DNA of 37,680 bases from Candidatus Eisenbacteria bacterium (GTDB lineage: Bacteria; Eisenbacteria; RBG-16-71-46). The notes beneath the pieces were generated by a model. The model saw nothing but the letters and a program-made list of their open reading frames with translations, was not told where the DNA came from and searched no databases. Shown in pieces: positions 3,508 through 15,325 of the stretch; position 1 is the first letter of the stretch; each line of letters opens with the position of its first letter. The stretch spans positions 1 to 37,680 of the forward strand of contig JABFRW010000025.1 in assembly GCA_013140805.1 (NCBI GenBank). Reading direction: 5' to 3'. Both the position numbers and the translations under genes were made by a program.

Positions 3508-5121
3508 ATGATCCGCGCCGTGACCGACTCCCGAGACCTCCCCACGGCCGGCGTGACTCCCGAACCTCTGACCTCGAACGCCCAGAGCGATAGCGAAACC
3601 CGTCTCGCCGGCATCATCGGCTCGGCGATGGACGCGATCATCACGATCGACGACGACCAGCGTGTCGTAGTCTTCAACGCCGCGGCCGAGCGGACCTTCG
3701 GCATTCCGGTCGCCGAAGCGCTCGGACAGTCGCTCGAGCGCTTCATTCCCGAACGGTTCCGCACCGCTCATCGAGGTCACGTCCAGGAGTTCGATCGCAC
3801 CAACGTCACCAAGCGGGCGATGGGGCGTCTCAGCTCGCTGTTCGGCCTGCGCTCGAACGGCGAGGAGTTTCCGATCGAAGCCTCGATCTCGCAGGTCGAG
3901 ATCCGCGGCAAGAAGCTGCTGACCGTGATCCTGCGCGACATCACCGAGAAGCGGCGCGCCGAGATGCAGCTCCTGCGCGCACAGCGGCTCGAGAGCGTCG
4001 GCACCCTGGCTGGAGGACTGGCGCACGATCTCAACAATATTCTCGCCCCCATCATGATGTCCGTGCGTCTGCTCGAGCGGAAACTCGCCGGAGACCCCGA
4101 GGGGCTCGAGTACGTGGTCATGCTGGGTCAGCTCGCCGATCGGGGCGCGAGCATCGTTCGACAGGTGCTGTCATTCGCGCGCGGTGTCGAGGGCGATCGA
4201 GTGCCGACGCAGCTCGGACACATCATCCGCGAGGTCGCCGATGTCCTGCGCGAGACGCTCCCCCGCAGCATCGCGGTGCGTAGCGAGCTGGCGAACGACT
4301 TGTGGATCGCGCGCGCGGACTCCACGCATATTCACCAGGTGCTCATGAACCTGGCGGTCAACGGACGCGACTCCATGCCGTCGGGCGGCACGCTCACGTT
4401 CGTGGCCCAGAACGTCACACTGGATGCCCACTTCGCGCAGATGCACCCGGATGCCACGCCGGGCAAGTATGTGTCGATTGCGGTGACCGACACCGGATCC
4501 GGCATCGCGCCGGAACACCTGGATCGGATCTTCGACCCGTTCTTCACCACCAAGTCCCATGGCGAGGGCACCGGCCTCGGTCTCTCGACGACGCTTGGCA
4601 TCATTCGGACGCACGAAGGGTTCATCAACGTCTACAGCGAGATCGGCCAGGGCACGCGCTTCACCATCTACCTTCCCGCCTACCCGCTGGAACCTGGTGC
4701 CGACGTGCCCGCGGACAAGTCCGAACTCATGGCGCGACTCCCCGCCGGACACGGTGAGCTGATCATGGTGGTCGACGACGAGGCGAGCATCCGGGAGATG
4801 ACCGGACGAACGCTGACGGAGTTCGGCTACAAGGTCCTGTCCGCGAGCGACGGCACCGAAGCGGTCTCGCTGCTCGCCCAGCATCAGGGACAGATCGCCG
4901 CGGTGGTGCTCGACATGATGATGCCCTTCATGGACGGCATCGCGACGGCCCGGGCCCTGAGACACATGGCTCCCAATCTGCGATTGATCGGCAGCAGCGG
5001 CCTCGCCGAGAAACGCCGACTCGCCGAGGCCGAAGATGCCGGGCTGGTGGGATTCCTTCCCAAGCCCTACACCGCCGACGACTTGCTGCAGGCATTGGCG
5101 GAGGCACTGAAGGAGCGGTGA
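3508..5121 (+). CDS. PAS-domain hybrid sensor histidine kinase with C-terminal receiver
   Basis: A 537-residue soluble hybrid kinase: PAS domain (about 35-145), HisKA with the phospho-accepting His at 173 (GGLAHDLNNILAPI), then the HATPase with N box NLAVNGRDSMP (281-291), G1 DTGSGI (328-333), F box FDPFFTTK and G2 GEGTGLGLS. A C-terminal receiver (about 417-535) has acidic residues VVDDE, phospho-acceptor Asp469 (VVLDMMMP) and Lys519 (LPKPY). All catalytic residues are present. There is no transmembrane segment, so the signal is probably cytoplasmic and read by the PAS domain. It converges on the porin gene (7 bases between stops) and is the only kinase candidate here for the NtrC-type regulator at 8575-9957; that pairing is inferred. 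ATG 3508 is used; GTG 3520 is an alternative. Confidence 0.93.
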   Translation: MIRAVTDSRDLPTAGVTPEPLTSNAQSDSETRLAGIIGSAMDAIITIDDDQRVVVFNAAAERTFGIPVAEALGQSLERFIPERFRTAHRGHVQEFDRTNVTKRAMGRLSSLFGLRSNGEEFPIEASISQVEIRGKKLLTVILRDITEKRRAEMQLLRAQRLESVGTLAGGLAHDLNNILAPIMMSVRLLERKLAGDPEGLEYVVMLGQLADRGASIVRQVLSFARGVEGDRVPTQLGHIIREVADVLRETLPRSIAVRSELANDLWIARADSTHIHQVLMNLAVNGRDSMPSGGTLTFVAQNVTLDAHFAQMHPDATPGKYVSIAVTDTGSGIAPEHLDRIFDPFFTTKSHGEGTGLGLSTTLGIIRTHEGFINVYSEIGQGTRFTIYLPAYPLEPGADVPADKSELMARLPAGHGELIMVVDDEASIREMTGRTLTEFGYKVLSASDGTEAVSLLAQHQGQIAAVVLDMMMPFMDGIATARALRHMAPNLRLIGSSGLAEKRRLAEAEDAGLVGFLPKPYTADDLLQALAEALKER

Positions 5122-5128
5122 TCGATCG

Positions 5129-6526
5129 TCAGAAGGAGACGACGGCTTCGATCACGGCTCCTTCGAACTTCGCCCTGCTGCGGATGTCGGTGAGCGGGAA
5201 GTCCTCGAACTTCTGCTGAACGTACTCGGCCTTGGCGAGGAGGTTCTGCGTTAGGAACCAGCCGGCGCCCACCTGCGTGCGGGTGACGGTCACTTCTGGC
5301 GTGATCCCCTGGAATTTGCCGGTGGCCACGTTGTAGCGGCCGGCAACATAGATCTGGTTATTGAGAAAGCGGTACACCGCTTCGCCGGCGTAGTGATCCC
5401 AGGTGCGTTCCGCGGTTTCGGTCGCCGAGCGGCCCTTGGCCTGCTCGAGATTGCCGAACAGCTCGAGCCCGCGGTACTTGATGAACGGGTTCACGACGAA
5501 CGCCTGTACTTTCTTTCCGAACCCCGGGCGCACGTCACCGGACCACGCTTGCGCGGCCTCGGTGGCATTCGGGTTCTCGACCACGTAGTAGTAGCGAGAT
5601 CCCGCGCGACTGCCGGTATAGAGCGTGTTGCTGATCGACTCGGAGGTGTTGTACATCGAGCCGGTCAGACGTACGCGGAGATCCGGAGTGACCTGGTTGT
5701 CGTAGCCGAGTTTGGCGATCAGGCTCGGTGAGCGCTGCTCGGGCTTGATGACCTGGCCGCGCACCTCGCCGCCCGTCACCGCCGCCATCGCGAGGAAGCC
5801 GTTCGCGCGCGCGTAGACCTCACCGCCGATTTCGGTGGTGAAGGCGTCCATGAGCAGGTTGCCGACGAACGGGTTGAACAGCGCCTGGCCGTTGTCGGTG
5901 CGACGGAAGTGCTGGTCGCCGTAGTTGATCTCGAAGTGCCCGAGTCGCAGCGTCACGTACTTCATCAGATTGTCGAGCTTTTCGTTCTCCCACGGCGAGC
6001 CGTCGATCAGCAGGTAGCCGTCCTTGACCCAGGTTTCTGAATGATGGCGAGACGACAGATAGCTCGTGAGCGCGACCCGGATTCCGCGGGCGAGCTGCGC
6101 ATCCATGAAGAGATTCGCGTCCGCGTTGTTGAATCCCTTGCCGATCCCGATCAAGGAGTTGAGATCGACACCGCTCACGATGTTCGGAGTCGCCTCGTTC
6201 TCGTGCTCGAGCGATTGGAACTGCTGCGTGAAGGCGGCACCCCACTGCAGAGCGAAGCCGTCGTAGCGGACGCCCTCCTGTTTCGGCGCCTCGAAGTGAT
6301 TGAGGCTCCGCGCATCGTGCGGATTGAAGAAGCCGACCCGGACCGGGACTGACTGGGCGCGCTCGGTCGCAGGCGGAGCGCTCGGGTTCTGCGCCGCGCC
6401 GACCGCATCGCTGGAATCGGAATCCTGAGCGCTCGCGCGCAACGGCGAGGAGACGAGCAGCGCGGCCAGCAGGATGAACATGGCCTGAGTGCCTAAGCGC
6501 CGGTGGATTTCAGCGTGCGAATGCAT
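5129..6526 (-). CDS. Outer-membrane porin-like beta-barrel protein
   Basis: 465 residues from ATG 6526, chosen over the longer frame because it follows GGAAGGGA at good spacing and begins a signal peptide (MFILLAALLVSSPLRASAQ). A low-complexity linker leads into amphipathic strands with many aromatic girdle residues (for example GDQHFRRTDNGQALFNPF, SRYYYVVENP, AGWFLTQNLLAKAEYV), and the last residue is Phe (IEAVVSF), the usual signal for barrel insertion by BamA. Size and style resemble phosphate-selective (OprO/P-like) or DcaP-like porins, but I cannot name a substrate. It is the last gene of the YceI-SRPBCC-porin operon, 29 bases after the SRPBCC gene, and probably shares the sigma54 promoter at 7890-7903. 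Confidence 0.85.
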   Translation of the reverse strand: MHSHAEIHRRLGTQAMFILLAALLVSSPLRASAQDSDSSDAVGAAQNPSAPPATERAQSVPVRVGFFNPHDARSLNHFEAPKQEGVRYDGFALQWGAAFTQQFQSLEHENEATPNIVSGVDLNSLIGIGKGFNNADANLFMDAQLARGIRVALTSYLSSRHHSETWVKDGYLLIDGSPWENEKLDNLMKYVTLRLGHFEINYGDQHFRRTDNGQALFNPFVGNLLMDAFTTEIGGEVYARANGFLAMAAVTGGEVRGQVIKPEQRSPSLIAKLGYDNQVTPDLRVRLTGSMYNTSESISNTLYTGSRAGSRYYYVVENPNATEAAQAWSGDVRPGFGKKVQAFVVNPFIKYRGLELFGNLEQAKGRSATETAERTWDHYAGEAVYRFLNNQIYVAGRYNVATGKFQGITPEVTVTRTQVGAGWFLTQNLLAKAEYVQQKFEDFPLTDIRSRAKFEGAVIEAVVSF

Positions 6527-6555: not shown

Positions 6556-7158
6556 CTAGGGTTGCCGCGCGGCCAGTGCCGCACGGCTTGCGACCTCTCT
6601 TGCGACTTCGGACAGCAGCTGACGAACGGTGCGCTGGAACATGCCGTGGGCGATGAACTCCGGAATCGAGCGGTTTGGACGTGCCTGCACGAGGTAAATG
6701 ATTTCGACCTCGGCGCCGTGATCGTCGATCCGCCACTCGCCCCGGTAGTGCTCGAAGTCCTTGCGCAGCACGTCCTCGAACACGATGCGCGCAGGCGGCT
6801 CCTCATGGACCTTGAGCGTGGTCCGCATGAGTCGCTTGAAGAGCAGCAGGCGCCCCTCCGCAAGCTGCTCGACCAGGACATCGCCGTCGCGCCATCCCAC
6901 GATCCGGCTCTCGCGCATCGACGAGACGAAGCGATCGATGCTGTCGTAGTCGGTCAGCACGGCCCACGCGATGGCCTGCGAGGCGGTCACGCGGACCCGG
7001 CCCTGGACTTCGAGCCCGTTCGGACCGCGGTGGACGCTCGCCGTCGCACGCTCGACCGTGGCGAGGTCATCCGCGCCGGCGGTCGGAGTCGCGAGCGCCA
7101 CGATCGCCGCGAGCGAGATCATTGCTGGAAGCATGAGGTCGAGCGTCGTGCGGATCAT
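6556..7158 (-). CDS. Secreted SRPBCC/START-like domain protein
   Basis: 200 residues. The first 28 form a signal peptide (MISLAAIVALATPTAGADD), placing the protein in the periplasm. The rest matches the SRPBCC (polyketide cyclase/CoQ-binding, START-like) fold by pattern: VTASQAIAWAVLTDYDSIDRFVSSM, a typical 'helix-grip' opening with the conserved TDYDSI-x-RF, followed by strands RIVFEDVLRKDFEHYRGEW and a long C-terminal helix (RQLLSEVAREVASRAALAA). The fold binds hydrophobic ligands such as lipids or quinones. It lies 7 bases after the YceI gene and 29 before the porin gene, so a lipid- or quinone-related envelope role alongside YceI is plausible but inferred. Confidence 0.85.
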   Translation of the reverse strand: MIRTTLDLMLPAMISLAAIVALATPTAGADDLATVERATASVHRGPNGLEVQGRVRVTASQAIAWAVLTDYDSIDRFVSSMRESRIVGWRDGDVLVEQLAEGRLLLFKRLMRTTLKVHEEPPARIVFEDVLRKDFEHYRGEWRIDDHGAEVEIIYLVQARPNRSIPEFIAHGMFQRTVRQLLSEVAREVASRAALAARQP

Positions 7159-7165
7159 CGCGGTC

Positions 7166-7828
7166 TCACTTGACGCCGGCCGCGCCGATCACCGCGTCCT
7201 TCGATTCGAGCTGGAGATCGAAGGAGACGACGACGAGGTCCGCGGTACGAAGCGTGCCCATCATCATGGTCGGCGGCTTGATGCCGAACGTCGACATGAG
7301 CAGTGAAGCGCTGCCACGCAGGTGCACGGTGTCGGACTCGCGAACGAACGTGACCGGCATTTTGAGCTCGCGTTCGACGCCGGCAACGCGGAGCGTGCCC
7401 GTGGCGTCGATCGCCAGCTCGCCGGGCCTGGCACCCTCGGCAATCTCGTAGCTCACCATGCGAAAGCGAATCTCGGGGTGCTTCTCGGCAAGCAGCGCCT
7501 TGTACATGTTCTTGTCGAGACCGGCCTTGCCCGAGTGCAGTCCGGTGACGGCCACGACGACATCCATCGAAGTGATGCCCTTGGCGCGCAGGAAGCGCTC
7601 GATCGCCTCGGCACCGGTCGCGTCGGTCGGCCACTTGGTCTGGTCCTGCTCGAACGAGACCTTCAGCGATGCGGCGGTGCTCTTGTATTCGTGGACGGTC
7701 GACTTGCCATCGAGCCACAGCTTGCTGCCGGCCTGGAGCTCGATGCGGCCGGCCCACGCCGTTGAAAAGGACAAGGCGGCGGCAACCGTGATCACGGCGA
7801 GCATCGCGAGTCGATTGGAACGCTGCAT
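7166..7828 (-). CDS. YceI family periplasmic protein
   Basis: 220 residues with a signal peptide cleaved near STAWA. The mature part has the YceI pattern: KLWLDGKSTVHEYKSTA, central KHPEIRFRMVSYEI, and the final strands ADLVVVSFDLQLESK. YceI proteins are lipocalin-like barrels that bind polyisoprenoid or other amphiphilic chains in the periplasm. It is somewhat long for the family because of inserted strands around 85-110. It is the first gene of the operon with SRPBCC and porin. The -24/-12 element at 7890-7903 places its predicted transcription start about 50 bases before the ATG. Confidence 0.9.
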   Translation of the reverse strand: MQRSNRLAMLAVITVAAALSFSTAWAGRIELQAGSKLWLDGKSTVHEYKSTAASLKVSFEQDQTKWPTDATGAEAIERFLRAKGITSMDVVVAVTGLHSGKAGLDKNMYKALLAEKHPEIRFRMVSYEIAEGARPGELAIDATGTLRVAGVERELKMPVTFVRESDTVHLRGSASLLMSTFGIKPPTMMMGTLRTADLVVVSFDLQLESKDAVIGAAGVK

Positions 7829-7889
7829 GACGGACCTCCGAACTTCGGGTCGGACGGAATGTCCGTAACCCTTCGCAGGTCCATAAGCG

Positions 7890-7903
7890 CAATGGGCGTG
7901 CCT
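7890..7903 (-). promoter_or_regulatory. Sigma54 (-24/-12) promoter of the YceI-SRPBCC-porin operon
   Basis: On the minus strand the sequence reads GGCACGCCCATTGC, with the required GG-N10-GC spacing, against the consensus TGGCACG-N4-TTGCA. Only the first T and the last A/T differ. It lies 62 bases from the YceI ATG, a normal position. A sigma54 activator gene is 0.7 kb upstream on the same strand. Confidence 0.75.
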
Positions 7904-7965
7904 GCGCGAATACGGGCTAAGCCCTTGCGGCGCCGTGATCGAATGCGGCTCTGGTTCCGTGGATC

Positions 7966-8001
7966 CAGACAGAATGACCGCGTGGCCTGCAGTTCTGTCA
8001 G
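7966..8001. promoter_or_regulatory. Candidate activator-binding sites (UAS) for the YceI operon
   Basis: GTTCTGTCAG at 7992-8001 and the inverted copy CAGACAGAAT at 7966-7975 lie 88 and 62 bases upstream of the -24 element. The core GACAGAA-N18-TTCTGTC is an inverted pair, as expected for a dimeric enhancer-binding protein. The same TTCTGTCAG core recurs in front of the pseudo-receiver gene at nearly the same distance from its sigma54 promoter. Confidence 0.55.
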
Positions 8002-8038
8002 GCGATCGCTCGCCGATTCGGAGGCGTGCCTCGGCGAG

Positions 8039-8407
8039 TCATCGACGCCCGGAGCCGCGTTGAAGCGCGCCTCGGACGGCATCCCGGAGCTCGGAGGGTT
8101 CGAGCGGAAGGACCCCGTAGTAGGTGGGCCTGAGCTCCTGAATGCTGCGGCGAGACTCCAGATCCGTCGGACCGCCGATCATGATGATCGGCAGCGTCGG
8201 GGCAACCGCGCGCAGCGACGACAGCAGGACCAGGTCGTCGAGGAGACTCTGGACTACGTAGACGAGCACATCCGGCCGCTGGGCGGAGAGCGCCTTCAGC
8301 AGGGCATGTCGATCCCGACAGCGCACGACTTCCTGCGCCTTGTCCGTCAGGAGCGAAAGACGGTTGGTGTCGTGCTCGTTCGGGTCGAAGATCAGGATGC
8401 GTGACAT
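8039..8407 (-). CDS. Pseudo-receiver (response-regulator-like) protein lacking the phospho-acceptor Asp
   Basis: 122 residues from ATG 8407, chosen because GAGGGG precedes it and the receiver fold starts at MSRILIFDPNEHD. The pattern of alternating strands and helices fits CheY-like receivers (MSRILIFD, DVLVYVV, LPIIMIGG, YYGVLPLEPSELRDAV). The residues that carry phosphotransfer are gone: the acceptor Asp position is Tyr/Val (VLVYVVQS), the Ser/Thr switch is Gly (IMIGG), and the Lys before the last loop is Leu (VLPLEP). So it is an unphosphorylated, stand-alone pseudo-receiver. It sits between the NtrC-type regulator and the YceI operon and has its own sigma54-like promoter. A role as partner or damper of the regulator is inferred. 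Confidence 0.8.
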   Translation of the reverse strand: MSRILIFDPNEHDTNRLSLLTDKAQEVVRCRDRHALLKALSAQRPDVLVYVVQSLLDDLVLLSSLRAVAPTLPIIMIGGPTDLESRRSIQELRPTYYGVLPLEPSELRDAVRGALQRGSGRR

Positions 8408-8444
8408 GCGTAGCCCCTCGCGGATGGGTCCCGAGAGGACTTCT

Positions 8445-8458
8445 GCAACCCGCATGCC
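8445..8458 (-). promoter_or_regulatory. Sigma54 (-24/-12) promoter of the pseudo-receiver gene
   Basis: On the minus strand GGCATGCGGGTTGC followed by A: GG-N10-GC with TTGCA exact at -12 and GGCATG for GGCACG at -24. It is 38 bases from the chosen ATG at 8407, which supports that start over the longer frame from 8455, whose first codons overlap this element. Confidence 0.65.
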
Positions 8459-8530
8459 CCGATGGGGACTGCGTCATTTCATGCGAATGAGGCCGCGCGG
8501 GTGAGCGGCGCAATGGGTGCTCGCTGCCCG

Positions 8531-8558
8531 ATTGTCAGGCGCGAACCGATTCTGTCAG
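8531..8558. promoter_or_regulatory. Candidate activator-binding sites (UAS) for the pseudo-receiver gene
   Basis: ATTCTGTCAG at 8549-8558 shares nine bases (TTCTGTCAG) with the site at 7993-8001 and lies 90 bases upstream of the -24 element; the YceI operon copy is 88 bases from its own. A weaker direct copy, ATTGTCAGG, is at 8531-8539. The site is also flanked by a 5-bp inverted repeat (CGAAC/GTTCG). Confidence 0.5.
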
Positions 8559-8574: not shown

Positions 8575-9957
8575 TCAGGGCTGGCTCGAGTCGTCCTTCG
8601 TCTTGACGCCTTCGAACTCCTTCAGTTTCCGGTAGAGATTGCGCTCGCTGATGCCCAGGATGCTCGCTGCCTTTTGGCGGTGACCCTTGCACTCCTCGAC
8701 CACCCGCAGAACGTGACGCCGCTCGACCTCCTCGAGCGTGACGAGTCGGCGATCCTCCTCGGTCGAGCGGAACGAGGGCTCGAGGCGAACTCCGAGCGGC
8801 AGGTGCGCGGACTCGATCACGCCGGCGTCGCACAGGATCAAGGCACGCTCGATCACGTTTTCGAGTTCGCGCACGTTGCCGGGCCAAGGGTAGCGGCGCA
8901 GCACTTCCATGGCCTCGTCCGAAACCCGCACATGGCGCTTGGGAGTGACGCTCGAGTTGCGAATGAAGTGCTCCACCAGAGGCGGCACGTCATCGCCGCG
9001 CTCGCGAAGCGGCGGGATCTGCAGCGAGAACACATTGAGCCGATAGTAGAGATCCTCGCGGAACTCGCCCGCCTTCATCATGGCCTCGAGAGCGCGATTG
9101 GTGGCGGCGATGAGCCGGACGTCGACGCGAATGTCCGCGGTGCCTCCGACCCGCCGGAACACGCCGGTCTCGAGCACGCGCAGGAGCTTCACTTGAAGCT
9201 GCGGTGTGAGTTCCCCGATCTCATCGAGGAACAGCGTGCCCCGATCCGCCACCTCGAACAGGCCGTGCTTGAGGCGCACCGCGCCGGTGTAGGCGCCCTT
9301 CTCATGACCGAAGAGTTCGCTCTGGAGCAGATTCTCATGCAGAGAAGCGCAGTCCACGACCACGAACGGCTGGCGCGACCGCTGGCTGCGACGGTGAACG
9401 GCCCGCGCGATGAGCTCCTTCCCCACGCCGCTCTCGCCGCGGACCAGCACCGTCGAGTCGGTCTCAGCGACTCGCGAAACGAGGTCGAGCAGCTCGCGCA
9501 CGCCGGCGCTCCGGCCGATGAAGCCGTCGCTCGGGTGGATGCGCGAGACTTCTCGCTCGAGCGCCGTGTGGCTGCGCTGCAGCGCCTGCTTCTGCACGGC
9601 CTTGTCGAGCACCGCTTCGAGCTGCTCGATCTTGAACGGCTTGGTCAGGAAGTCGAGGGCACCGTTCTTCATCGCGCGGATCGCCTCTTCGACCGTGGCG
9701 TGGCCGGTGAGCATCACGATCTCGGTCGCCGGGGCGTTCTCTTTGACCTCGGCCAGCAGGTCGAGGCCGCTGCCATCCGGCAACCGCACGTCGAGGAGGA
9801 TCAGGTCGAAAGTACGCTGGCGAAGGGTCTCGCGTGCCTCGCGCAGGTTGGCCGCGGTCGCGACGCGATAGCCGGCGTGGGCGAGTTCGTGGCCGACCAG
9901 CTTTCGAAAGGCTTCTTCGTCGTCGACCAGCAGCAGGGACGTCTCGGACATGGTCAC
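8575..9957 (-). CDS. NtrC-family sigma54-dependent response regulator
   Basis: 460 residues with the full three-domain layout. Receiver 5-120: acidic pocket VDDEE, phospho-acceptor Asp56 (LILLDVRLPDGSG), Thr84/Lys106 (MLTGHA, LTKPF). AAA+ domain about 143-375: Walker A GESGVGKE (174-181), the sigma54-contacting loop GAYTGA (221-226; Tyr for the commoner Phe is frequent), Walker B TLFLDEIGE and arginine finger region FREDLYYRLNV. C-terminal Fis-type HTH: KAASILGISERNLYRKL. GTG 9957 or ATG 9951 may be the start. It lies 51 bases after the oxidoreductase gene and upstream of two sigma54-type promoters on the same strand, which it probably activates after phosphorylation, perhaps by the kinase at 3508-5121. 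Confidence 0.95.
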   Translation of the reverse strand: MTMSETSLLLVDDEEAFRKLVGHELAHAGYRVATAANLREARETLRQRTFDLILLDVRLPDGSGLDLLAEVKENAPATEIVMLTGHATVEEAIRAMKNGALDFLTKPFKIEQLEAVLDKAVQKQALQRSHTALEREVSRIHPSDGFIGRSAGVRELLDLVSRVAETDSTVLVRGESGVGKELIARAVHRRSQRSRQPFVVVDCASLHENLLQSELFGHEKGAYTGAVRLKHGLFEVADRGTLFLDEIGELTPQLQVKLLRVLETGVFRRVGGTADIRVDVRLIAATNRALEAMMKAGEFREDLYYRLNVFSLQIPPLRERGDDVPPLVEHFIRNSSVTPKRHVRVSDEAMEVLRRYPWPGNVRELENVIERALILCDAGVIESAHLPLGVRLEPSFRSTEEDRRLVTLEEVERRHVLRVVEECKGHRQKAASILGISERNLYRKLKEFEGVKTKDDSSQP

Positions 9958-10008: not shown

Positions 10009-11160
10009 TCACGCCTTCGAACTCCAATCCCGCCCGAACCAGCGCCGAATGCGACTCGAACCGAAGTGAAGTTTCTCGGTGACCAGCGCTTCGGAGGGTT
10101 GGTAGTAGGTGCCGGTCGGCTTGGGGCCACTGAGGAAGGTCACGTCGACGCGTCCCACCCGGTTGCCGCCGAACTCGACGTAGCACGATCCCGCGCCGAC
10201 GTAGGCTCCCGGGGACTCGCCGCCGCCGAGCTGCGCGATGATCGCGGCCGCGACGGTCTTGGCCGAACCCTCAGCGAACACGCCCGCCTTCGGAGTCCCG
10301 ACGCCATTCACATCCCCGATCGCATACACACCCGGGAAGCGCGTTTCAAGCGTCTGCTTGTTCACCGTGATCCAGGTGTCCTCGACGAGACCGGATTCCG
10401 CAACCACTTTGGGCACACGGTGAAACGGAACTCCCAGGAACAGCGCGTACGGCATCTCGCTCCCGTCGTCGAGCACCGCGACCTTGCGGGCGGGGTCGAG
10501 CGACGTGACGAGGCGCTCGCCAATGAACCGGATCCCACGCTCGGCGAACGCGGCGAGGATCGCGTCCGAGGTTTCGGGCGAGGGCGGTATCGGTCGGCCG
10601 AACGGCATGACCAGCGCGATCTCGGTGTCGGCGCGACGGCCGCGCGCGACGAGGTAATCGTGCAGCAACAGCGCAGTCTCGCTCGGGGCGGGCGGACACT
10701 TGAAAGTCTTCGAAGTCACGCCGACGATCGCCGGGCCGCGCTCGAAATGCGGCAGCACCTCGCGCAGTCGCTCGGCGCCCTCGACGGTGTAGAACTCGTT
10801 ACCGCCCTCGACAAGTCCAGGAGTCGCTGCCGGATCCAGATCGGCGCCGAGCGCCACGATCAGGATGTCGGCTTCGAACTCTCCCGCGGAAGTCACGACA
10901 CGCTTCGCAACCGGGTCGATCGAACGCACCTCGGTCTGAAGGAACCGCACCCCCGGCTTCACGAAGTCTCGGTAGGGGTGGTGCGCGTCGGCGGGAAGCT
11001 GGCGTCCGAACATTACGTCGAGCTTCGAGAAGCCGAAAACGAACGAATCGGACTTGTCGACCAGAACGATGTCGACGGTGTCGCCGAATGCCTCCGATAG
11101 AATCGTCGTCAGCTCGAGACCGCCGAAGCCCGCTCCCAGCACCACGACGCGTTTGCGCAT
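10009..11160 (-). CDS. FAD/NAD(P)-binding oxidoreductase, sulfide:quinone reductase/flavocytochrome c-like
   Basis: 383 residues from ATG 11160, where the protein starts directly with the Rossmann motif VVVLGAGFGGLE (GxGxxG at 9-14). A second conserved block, FPGVYAIGDVNGVGTPKAG, binds the FAD isoalloxazine side. Cys155 sits in KCPPAPSE, the place of the redox Cys of sulfide:quinone reductases and flavocytochrome c sulfide dehydrogenases. A late Cys occurs in GSCYVEF. The protein belongs to the SQR/FCSD/NDH-2 two-dinucleotide-binding group. Sulfide or polysulfide oxidation is possible, but the active-site Cys pair is not fully verified. There is no signal peptide. The longer frame upstream is rejected because its first 58 residues are not domain-like. 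It may be co-transcribed with the regulator. Confidence 0.88.
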   Translation of the reverse strand: MRKRVVVLGAGFGGLELTTILSEAFGDTVDIVLVDKSDSFVFGFSKLDVMFGRQLPADAHHPYRDFVKPGVRFLQTEVRSIDPVAKRVVTSAGEFEADILIVALGADLDPAATPGLVEGGNEFYTVEGAERLREVLPHFERGPAIVGVTSKTFKCPPAPSETALLLHDYLVARGRRADTEIALVMPFGRPIPPSPETSDAILAAFAERGIRFIGERLVTSLDPARKVAVLDDGSEMPYALFLGVPFHRVPKVVAESGLVEDTWITVNKQTLETRFPGVYAIGDVNGVGTPKAGVFAEGSAKTVAAAIIAQLGGGESPGAYVGAGSCYVEFGGNRVGRVDVTFLSGPKPTGTYYQPSEALVTEKLHFGSSRIRRWFGRDWSSKA

Positions 11161-14869: not shown

Positions 14870-15325
14870 CTATTGCGACTTGCGCTGCTTTCGGCGCTTG
14901 GGCAGCACTTTCACAAGCGGTCCCCGACGCGCGACGCTAAGCTTTGAGGAGCACGTACGGAGCCAGTCGGCGAACTCGACCTCACTCAGCTCGCGCATGG
15001 ACAATGCACGCGTCGCCTGCGCCGCGTCCTGCTCCGTTGCCTCGAGTCGGAATCCGTTCAGCTCCATGAACACACCTGCTACCGTGAGCGCGACGCGCTT
15101 GTTGCCGTCCGCAAACGGGTGATTCTGGGTAAGAGAGTACGCGTATGCGGCCGCCAGCCGAAGAGTGTCCGCACGTTCATACGCGAAGTGGTTCTTCGGA
15201 CTGGCCAAGGCCGCATCCAGTAAGCCTTCGTCGAGAACTCCGGAAGCGCCACCGTGCACTGACAGGAGCTGCTCGTGAAAGGCAAGGACGGCCTGCTTCG
15301 AAATCCATTTGGGTTCCCGCTTCAC
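14870..15325 (-). CDS. doc: Doc/Fic-family toxin (death-on-curing) of a type II toxin-antitoxin pair
   Basis: 151 residues from GTG 15325. The Fic-type active site HPFADGNKR (69-77) is complete. In phage P1 Doc the equivalent motif phosphorylates elongation factor EF-Tu and stops translation. The rest fits Doc: an N-terminal helix pair with SVHGG-x-x-GVLDEGLLDAALASP, then helices around the motif. A basic tail (RRGPLVKVLPKRRKQRK) extends beyond the usual 125-130 residues. The GTG start overlaps the antitoxin stop as GTGA, the tight coupling expected for a toxin-antitoxin operon. The active site is intact, so the system is probably live. Confidence 0.93.
   Translation of the reverse strand: MKREPKWISKQAVLAFHEQLLSVHGGASGVLDEGLLDAALASPKNHFAYERADTLRLAAAYAYSLTQNHPFADGNKRVALTVAGVFMELNGFRLEATEQDAAQATRALSMRELSEVEFADWLRTCSSKLSVARRGPLVKVLPKRRKQRKSQ

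Follow-up and report, generated by a model that had tools for sequence, protein, structure and literature searches.

Do two minus-strand promoters that resemble sigma54 -24/-12 elements, with a nine-base word repeated upstream of both, form a small regulon of the NtrC-family activator encoded next to them? Such a regulon, with its own enhancer motif, was the original prediction for the locus considered here, which lies in a 37 680 nt stretch of Eisenbacteria DNA (the whole stretch that was analysed, hereafter the window). The prediction turned out to be largely right: pairs of upstream site and promoter co-occur with the NtrC orthologue across the class. The features of the locus are listed in Table 1.

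Promoters and genes of the locus

Both predicted sigma54 boxes are present; the one upstream of the pseudo-receiver gene was placed exactly, while the one upstream of the YceI-SRPBCC-barrel operon lies at 7889-7902 and not at 7890-7903. Both elements are near perfect, with a GG-N10-GC spacing close to TGGCACG-N4-TTGC, and both belong to the seven best -24/-12 matches in the 2.9 million strand positions sampled (∼38% of the genome). The genome also encodes RpoN (PF04552, 216 bits). The promoters do front a pseudo-receiver gene and an envelope operon, as had been proposed, and the activator gene is indeed adjacent. Its product combines a receiver that has the phospho-acceptor Asp, an AAA+ domain with GAYTGA (a variant of GAFTGA) and a Fis-type HTH, which is the NtrC-type architecture; the HTH helix ISERNLYRKLK is nearly invariant among orthologues.

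An AlphaFold model of the pseudo-receiver has the receiver fold (pLDDT 87.8), and the phospho-acceptor Asp is missing in 12 homologues as well. For the porin-like protein no match was found in Pfam, NCBIfam or, in a sequence search, PDB; with regard to barrel identity, the predicted model was poor (pLDDT 43). The gene upstream of the NtrC gene (10009-11160, minus strand), where most relatives have a kinase, encodes a flavoprotein similar to sulfide:quinone reductases of type III, with a score of 183 bits, below the cut-off of 525.

Table 1. Features of the locus, with positions in the window
Feature	Position	Strand	Basis or remark
PAS histidine kinase with C-terminal receiver (hybrid), candidate partner of the regulator	3508..5121	+	70% identical homologue beside pseudo-receiver in G003
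Porin-like envelope protein (barrel)	5129..6526	-	conserved beside YceI in three phyla
SRPBCC/START-like (Polyketide_cyc) protein	6556..7158	-	PF03364
YceI-like lipid-binding domain protein, heads second target operon	7166..7828	-	PF04264
Sigma54 -24/-12 element GGCACGCCCATTGC, YceI-SRPBCC-barrel operon	7889..7902	-	best-scoring of the 2.9 million strand positions sampled
Weak second operator half (CTGTCTG) upstream of YceI	7966..7975	-	imperfect, low confidence
Candidate operator dyad CTGACAGAACTGCAG upstream of YceI	7987..8001	-	8/10 dyad positions
Stand-alone pseudo-receiver, 122 aa, first target	8039..8407	-	no phospho-acceptor Asp
Sigma54 -24/-12 element GGCATGCGGGTTGC, pseudo-receiver gene	8445..8458	-	sequence match
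Candidate operator 2, pseudo-receiver promoter, CTGACAATCGGGCAG	8524..8538	-	9/10 dyad positions; 20 bp from operator 1
Candidate operator 1, pseudo-receiver promoter, CTGACAGAATCGGTT	8544..8558	-	one good half
NtrC-family response regulator, proposed activator	8575..9957	-	NtrC-type domain architecture (see text)

Rarity of the nine-base word

The word TTCTGTCAG (plus strand; the promoter strand reads CTGACAGAA) occurs at 7993-8001 and 8550-8558. It is common to both promoters, as had been noticed; the gaps to the -24 GG, given earlier as 88 and 90 bases, are 90 bp for the YceI promoter and 91 bp for the pseudo-receiver promoter. Two copies in the window compare with 0.16 expected from shuffles, none of which reached two. 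We found five copies in the whole 3.8 Mb genome against three of a control word (controls in genome scans were reversed patterns and preserve base composition only); the remaining three copies are inside long ORFs. A genome scan for the core together with its spacing to the promoter box (CTGACAGAA-N75-105-GGCAYG-N4-TTGC) gave two occurrences, both at this locus, with none for the control; thus, the enhancer and promoter pair is found solely here. Looser searches for a large regulon in this genome, which is a draft (96% complete), added only one intragenic match to these two.

That the repeated word is a chance match could be argued from its having just two copies, spotted by eye, and from the lack of conservation of two of its nine bases. 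However, different genera and families keep the sites in the orthologous intergenic regions (see below), which rules out chance in one genome, and we regard a coincidence as barely conceivable. The rarity in the genome also favours the original prediction.

The predicted operator

In a pooled set of 41 sites we observed CAG at offset 12 in 16 sites; every other offset, up to 23, had CAG in two sites at most. The operator was therefore defined as a 15-bp dyad, CTGAC-N5-GnCAG. By sequence, this dyad is the predicted operator and the nine-base core is half of it. The conserved part of the core is CTGACAG; the TT/GAA bases show no conservation. The core as such was rejected as the operator, since its GAA end is unconserved and the dyad accounts for the sites. 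Copies of the dyad often form tandems with a spacing of 20-21 or 28 bp. At the pseudo-receiver promoter, operator 2 is better than operator 1 and was absent from the half-sites listed earlier. At the YceI promoter one copy is clear (7987-8001), and the third of the half-sites listed earlier (7966-7975) proved weak.

The pooled sites lie ∼80-135 bp upstream of -24. This position and the tandem spacing are typical of sigma54 activators, which speaks against the dyad being an operator of another kind of regulator (e.g. a repressor), with the sigma54 boxes using an unseen enhancer. Dyads of such size are, it is well established, common to many regulator families; still, three relatives that lack the NtrC gene have the envelope operon beside a LuxR-type regulator and without the sites. 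We consider an operator of this other kind very unlikely.

Conservation and co-occurrence with the regulator

Of the other genomes searched, 12 encode a full orthologue of the regulator (66-79% identity), and genome G019 a partial one. Twelve intergenic regions between ntrC and the pseudo-receiver gene were picked by gene order only and then searched for words. CCTGAC was present in 11 of the 12 and CTGACA in nine, with 1.2 expected; the regions contained 16 sites, while the shuffle maximum was six. Relatives that share this gene order keep the -24/-12 box together with the upstream element, as the original prediction demanded. In two genomes (G010 and G033) the regulator is present and the adjacent target or site is absent.

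Across 59 genomes, CTGACAG combined with a strict sigma54 box was matched five times (control 0), in every case beside the regulator. Class-wide, in 47 genomes, a match was seen in 7 of the 14 genomes with the regulator versus 1 of the 33 without it. With a looser pattern, picked after the first matches were seen, there were 17 matches (control 0) in 14 orthologue-bearing genomes and four (control 2) in 20 genomes without an orthologue (Fisher p 0.0014); the opposite orientation, with a looser pattern likewise picked after the first matches, gave 11 matches (control 1).

These counts bear on a further alternative, that a different NtrC-family protein binds CTGACAG, the sigma54 promoters being real and the neighbouring regulator acting elsewhere. 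Many NtrC-family proteins are encoded in the genome (at least 11 scored matches; 85 first-look candidates), and the operator geometry is common to the family. Nevertheless, the site and promoter pairs track this particular orthologue across the class and adjoin its gene, and in G005 one such pair precedes the operon to which the gene itself belongs; a different NtrC-family protein is, in our estimate, unlikely.

Kinases and predicted targets in relatives

In G005 the pair of site and promoter precedes the kinase-NtrC operon, the pseudo-receiver gene and the barrel operon, as well as a cluster of hemerythrin and NosZ (N2O reductase). Elsewhere it precedes genes of multihaem cytochromes (G013 and G002), a Crp/Fnr gene (G035), the gene of pyruvate-ferredoxin oxidoreductase gamma (G013), the gene of a NuoEF-like protein (G003), Hsp20 genes (G015 and G030) and the gene of an OsmC-like protein that is below the Pfam cut-off (G015). 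Another target in G003 is, judging by sequence, AsnA/GDH. The pair also precedes genes outside the theme of respiration and stress (beta-lactamase fold, cupin, lipoprotein and unknowns), which may be off-theme or false. The small regulon proposed originally is local in the genome of the window but in relatives would extend to genes of respiration and stress.

The kinase encoded directly upstream of the NtrC gene has a PAS domain with four conserved cysteines in nine of the ten f1 and f5 relatives read, with a spacing of about C-x5-C-x10-12-C-x2-C (e.g. L037:2849-4084 and L039:2746-4011). These NreB-type cysteines occur in the kinases of the relatives and not in the hybrid kinase of the window. 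No four-cysteine kinase was seen in the 37% of the window's genome that was sampled, where the upstream neighbour of the regulator is the flavoprotein; the hybrid kinase may be the partner of the regulator in this genome.

Proposed circuit

We propose that the regulator would bind tandem CTGAC-N5-GnCAG dyads ∼80-100 bp upstream of the two -24/-12 promoters and, when phosphorylated, would activate sigma54-RNA polymerase at both. One promoter would drive the stand-alone pseudo-receiver and the other the YceI-SRPBCC-barrel envelope operon. This circuit of promoters, operator and activator we hold to be highly probable, with binding and activation predicted from sequence. Against the reading as a whole count the flavoprotein in the usual place of the kinase, the off-theme genes among the targets of relatives, and the genomes G010, G033 and G015, which have the regulator but lack an expected target or site. 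In relatives the same regulator would also control its own kinase-regulator operon and scattered genes of anaerobic respiration and stress, and in most of them the signal would be sensed by the adjacent kinase with the four-cysteine PAS domain. Because the targets in relatives are genes of anaerobic respiration and stress, we take low oxygen or the redox state of the cell to be the most likely signal, a suggestion to which we give about an even chance. One could speculate that the pseudo-receiver provides feedback on the relay.

The best reading would then be an NtrC-type, sigma54-dependent redox or low-oxygen regulon, reduced in the genome of the window to the pseudo-receiver and the YceI-SRPBCC-barrel operon; it looks like an undescribed circuit of stress and low-oxygen control. 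A broader possibility, put forward tentatively and with less confidence than the nature of the signal, is a sigma54 anaerobiosis regulon of an uncultivated phylum, in which a PAS kinase with four cysteines (perhaps an Fe-S protein) and a regulator of NtrC type, using the CTGAC-N5-GnCAG operator, might govern the reduction of N2O as well as multihaem cytochromes, pyruvate-ferredoxin oxidoreductase and stress proteins, while the co-regulated pseudo-receiver might feed back on the relay.

For this lineage, on which no regulatory study was found in the literature searched, the analysis supplies a proposed activator, an operator and a list of targets, and in relatives it links a sigma54 circuit with multihaem cytochromes and N2O reductase. 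It also singles out a conserved pseudo-receiver, adjacent to the regulator, as a protein with a testable role in a phosphorelay, and gives a regulatory context to the YceI-barrel operon, which is widespread in Gemmatimonadota and Bacteroidota and has no known function.

Comparison with known systems

The closest system in operation is NmpRSTU of Myxococcus xanthus, where an NtrC-like regulator acts with sigma54 through a dyad GCGCA-N5-TGCGC, usually with two sites per promoter; its regulon serves oxygen utilization under oxygen limitation and includes a universal stress protein and a high-affinity oxidase (PMC11841059). The NtrC-type regulator with sigma54, the 5-N5-5 dyad geometry and the paired sites are alike. 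The operator here is different, CTGAC-N5-GnCAG, therefore membership in the NmpR group is not claimed. The phylum differs too, as do the targets, which here include the pseudo-receiver and, in relatives, N2O reductase and multihaem cytochromes; NmpU is a kinase of protoglobin type; among the kinases read near the regulator here, which are of PAS type, no protoglobin kinase was seen.

GlrR/QseF is also an NtrC-type response regulator working with sigma54, and its operator, TGTC-N10-GACA (PMC8745638), is made of similar GACA/TGTC letters. Identity with GlrR/QseF was rejected: the regulator reached 357 bits, well short of the 763 set as the curated cut-off for GlrR, and the order and spacing of half-sites differ.

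NreB-type kinases are cytoplasmic and sense oxygen by an Fe-S PAS domain with a 4Fe-4S cluster (reviewed in PMC4601167). The kinases of the relatives share with NreB the four cysteines within the PAS domain of a cytoplasmic kinase, and may bind a comparable cluster. The partner of NreB is of NarL type, while the partner here is of NtrC type; the cysteine spacing given above also sets these kinases apart, and near the regulator of the window such a kinase was not found.

In Desulfovibrio vulgaris the regulons of enhancer-binding proteins are small, mostly of one to four operons; they frequently neighbour the gene of their activator, and each has its own operator (PMC4641369). The regulon proposed here is similarly small, adjacent to its activator and equipped with a specific operator; it differs in phylum and targets, and an operator of the CTGAC-N5-GnCAG type is not named in the main text of that paper. 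Our literature search found no paper tying this operator to sigma54 activators.

The barrel operon and its candidate regulators

The barrel protein was found in 10 of the 59 genomes, all in the family of the window. Four of these combine the barrel operon with an orthologue of the NtrC gene, with sigma54 box and operator upstream of the operon in three (the window, G005 and G008); in the fourth, G015, the operon has no sigma54 box plus operator. Among loci from the six genomes lacking the orthologue, some of them cut by contig ends, none had sigma54 box and operator at the barrel operon. A LuxR-type regulator adjoins the operon in three of these six (G001, G012 and G017), and UspA heads it in G001 and G012. 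In L084 (5178-6664), L086 and L087, from relatives without the NtrC gene, the neighbour of the UspA-YceI-barrel-SRPBCC operon is a divergently oriented response regulator gene of LuxR type, as if the regulator of the operon had been exchanged.

A first search of named genomes with the single porin protein gave no match. In Gemmatimonadota and Bacteroidota (among them Pedobacter and Algoriphagus; loci L135-L214) the porin-like protein keeps its place next to YceI, and in these loci no convincing pair of site and sigma54 promoter was seen.

Additional observations

The orthologue in G008 (L038:4357-5685) has GAYTDA in place of GAYTGA in the sigma54-contact loop, which is either a real change or a sequencing error. 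In the window, a Doc/Fic-like protein (14870-15325) is preceded by an AbrB-like small protein (ORF ending at 15322, minus strand); the two are likely to be a toxin-antitoxin pair, judging by their sequences. From outside the class, G078 has a regulator with 50% identity and a near-identical recognition helix; just behind this regulator gene, downstream of ntrC in L048, we observed CTGACAAATCGACAG, which matches the dyad.
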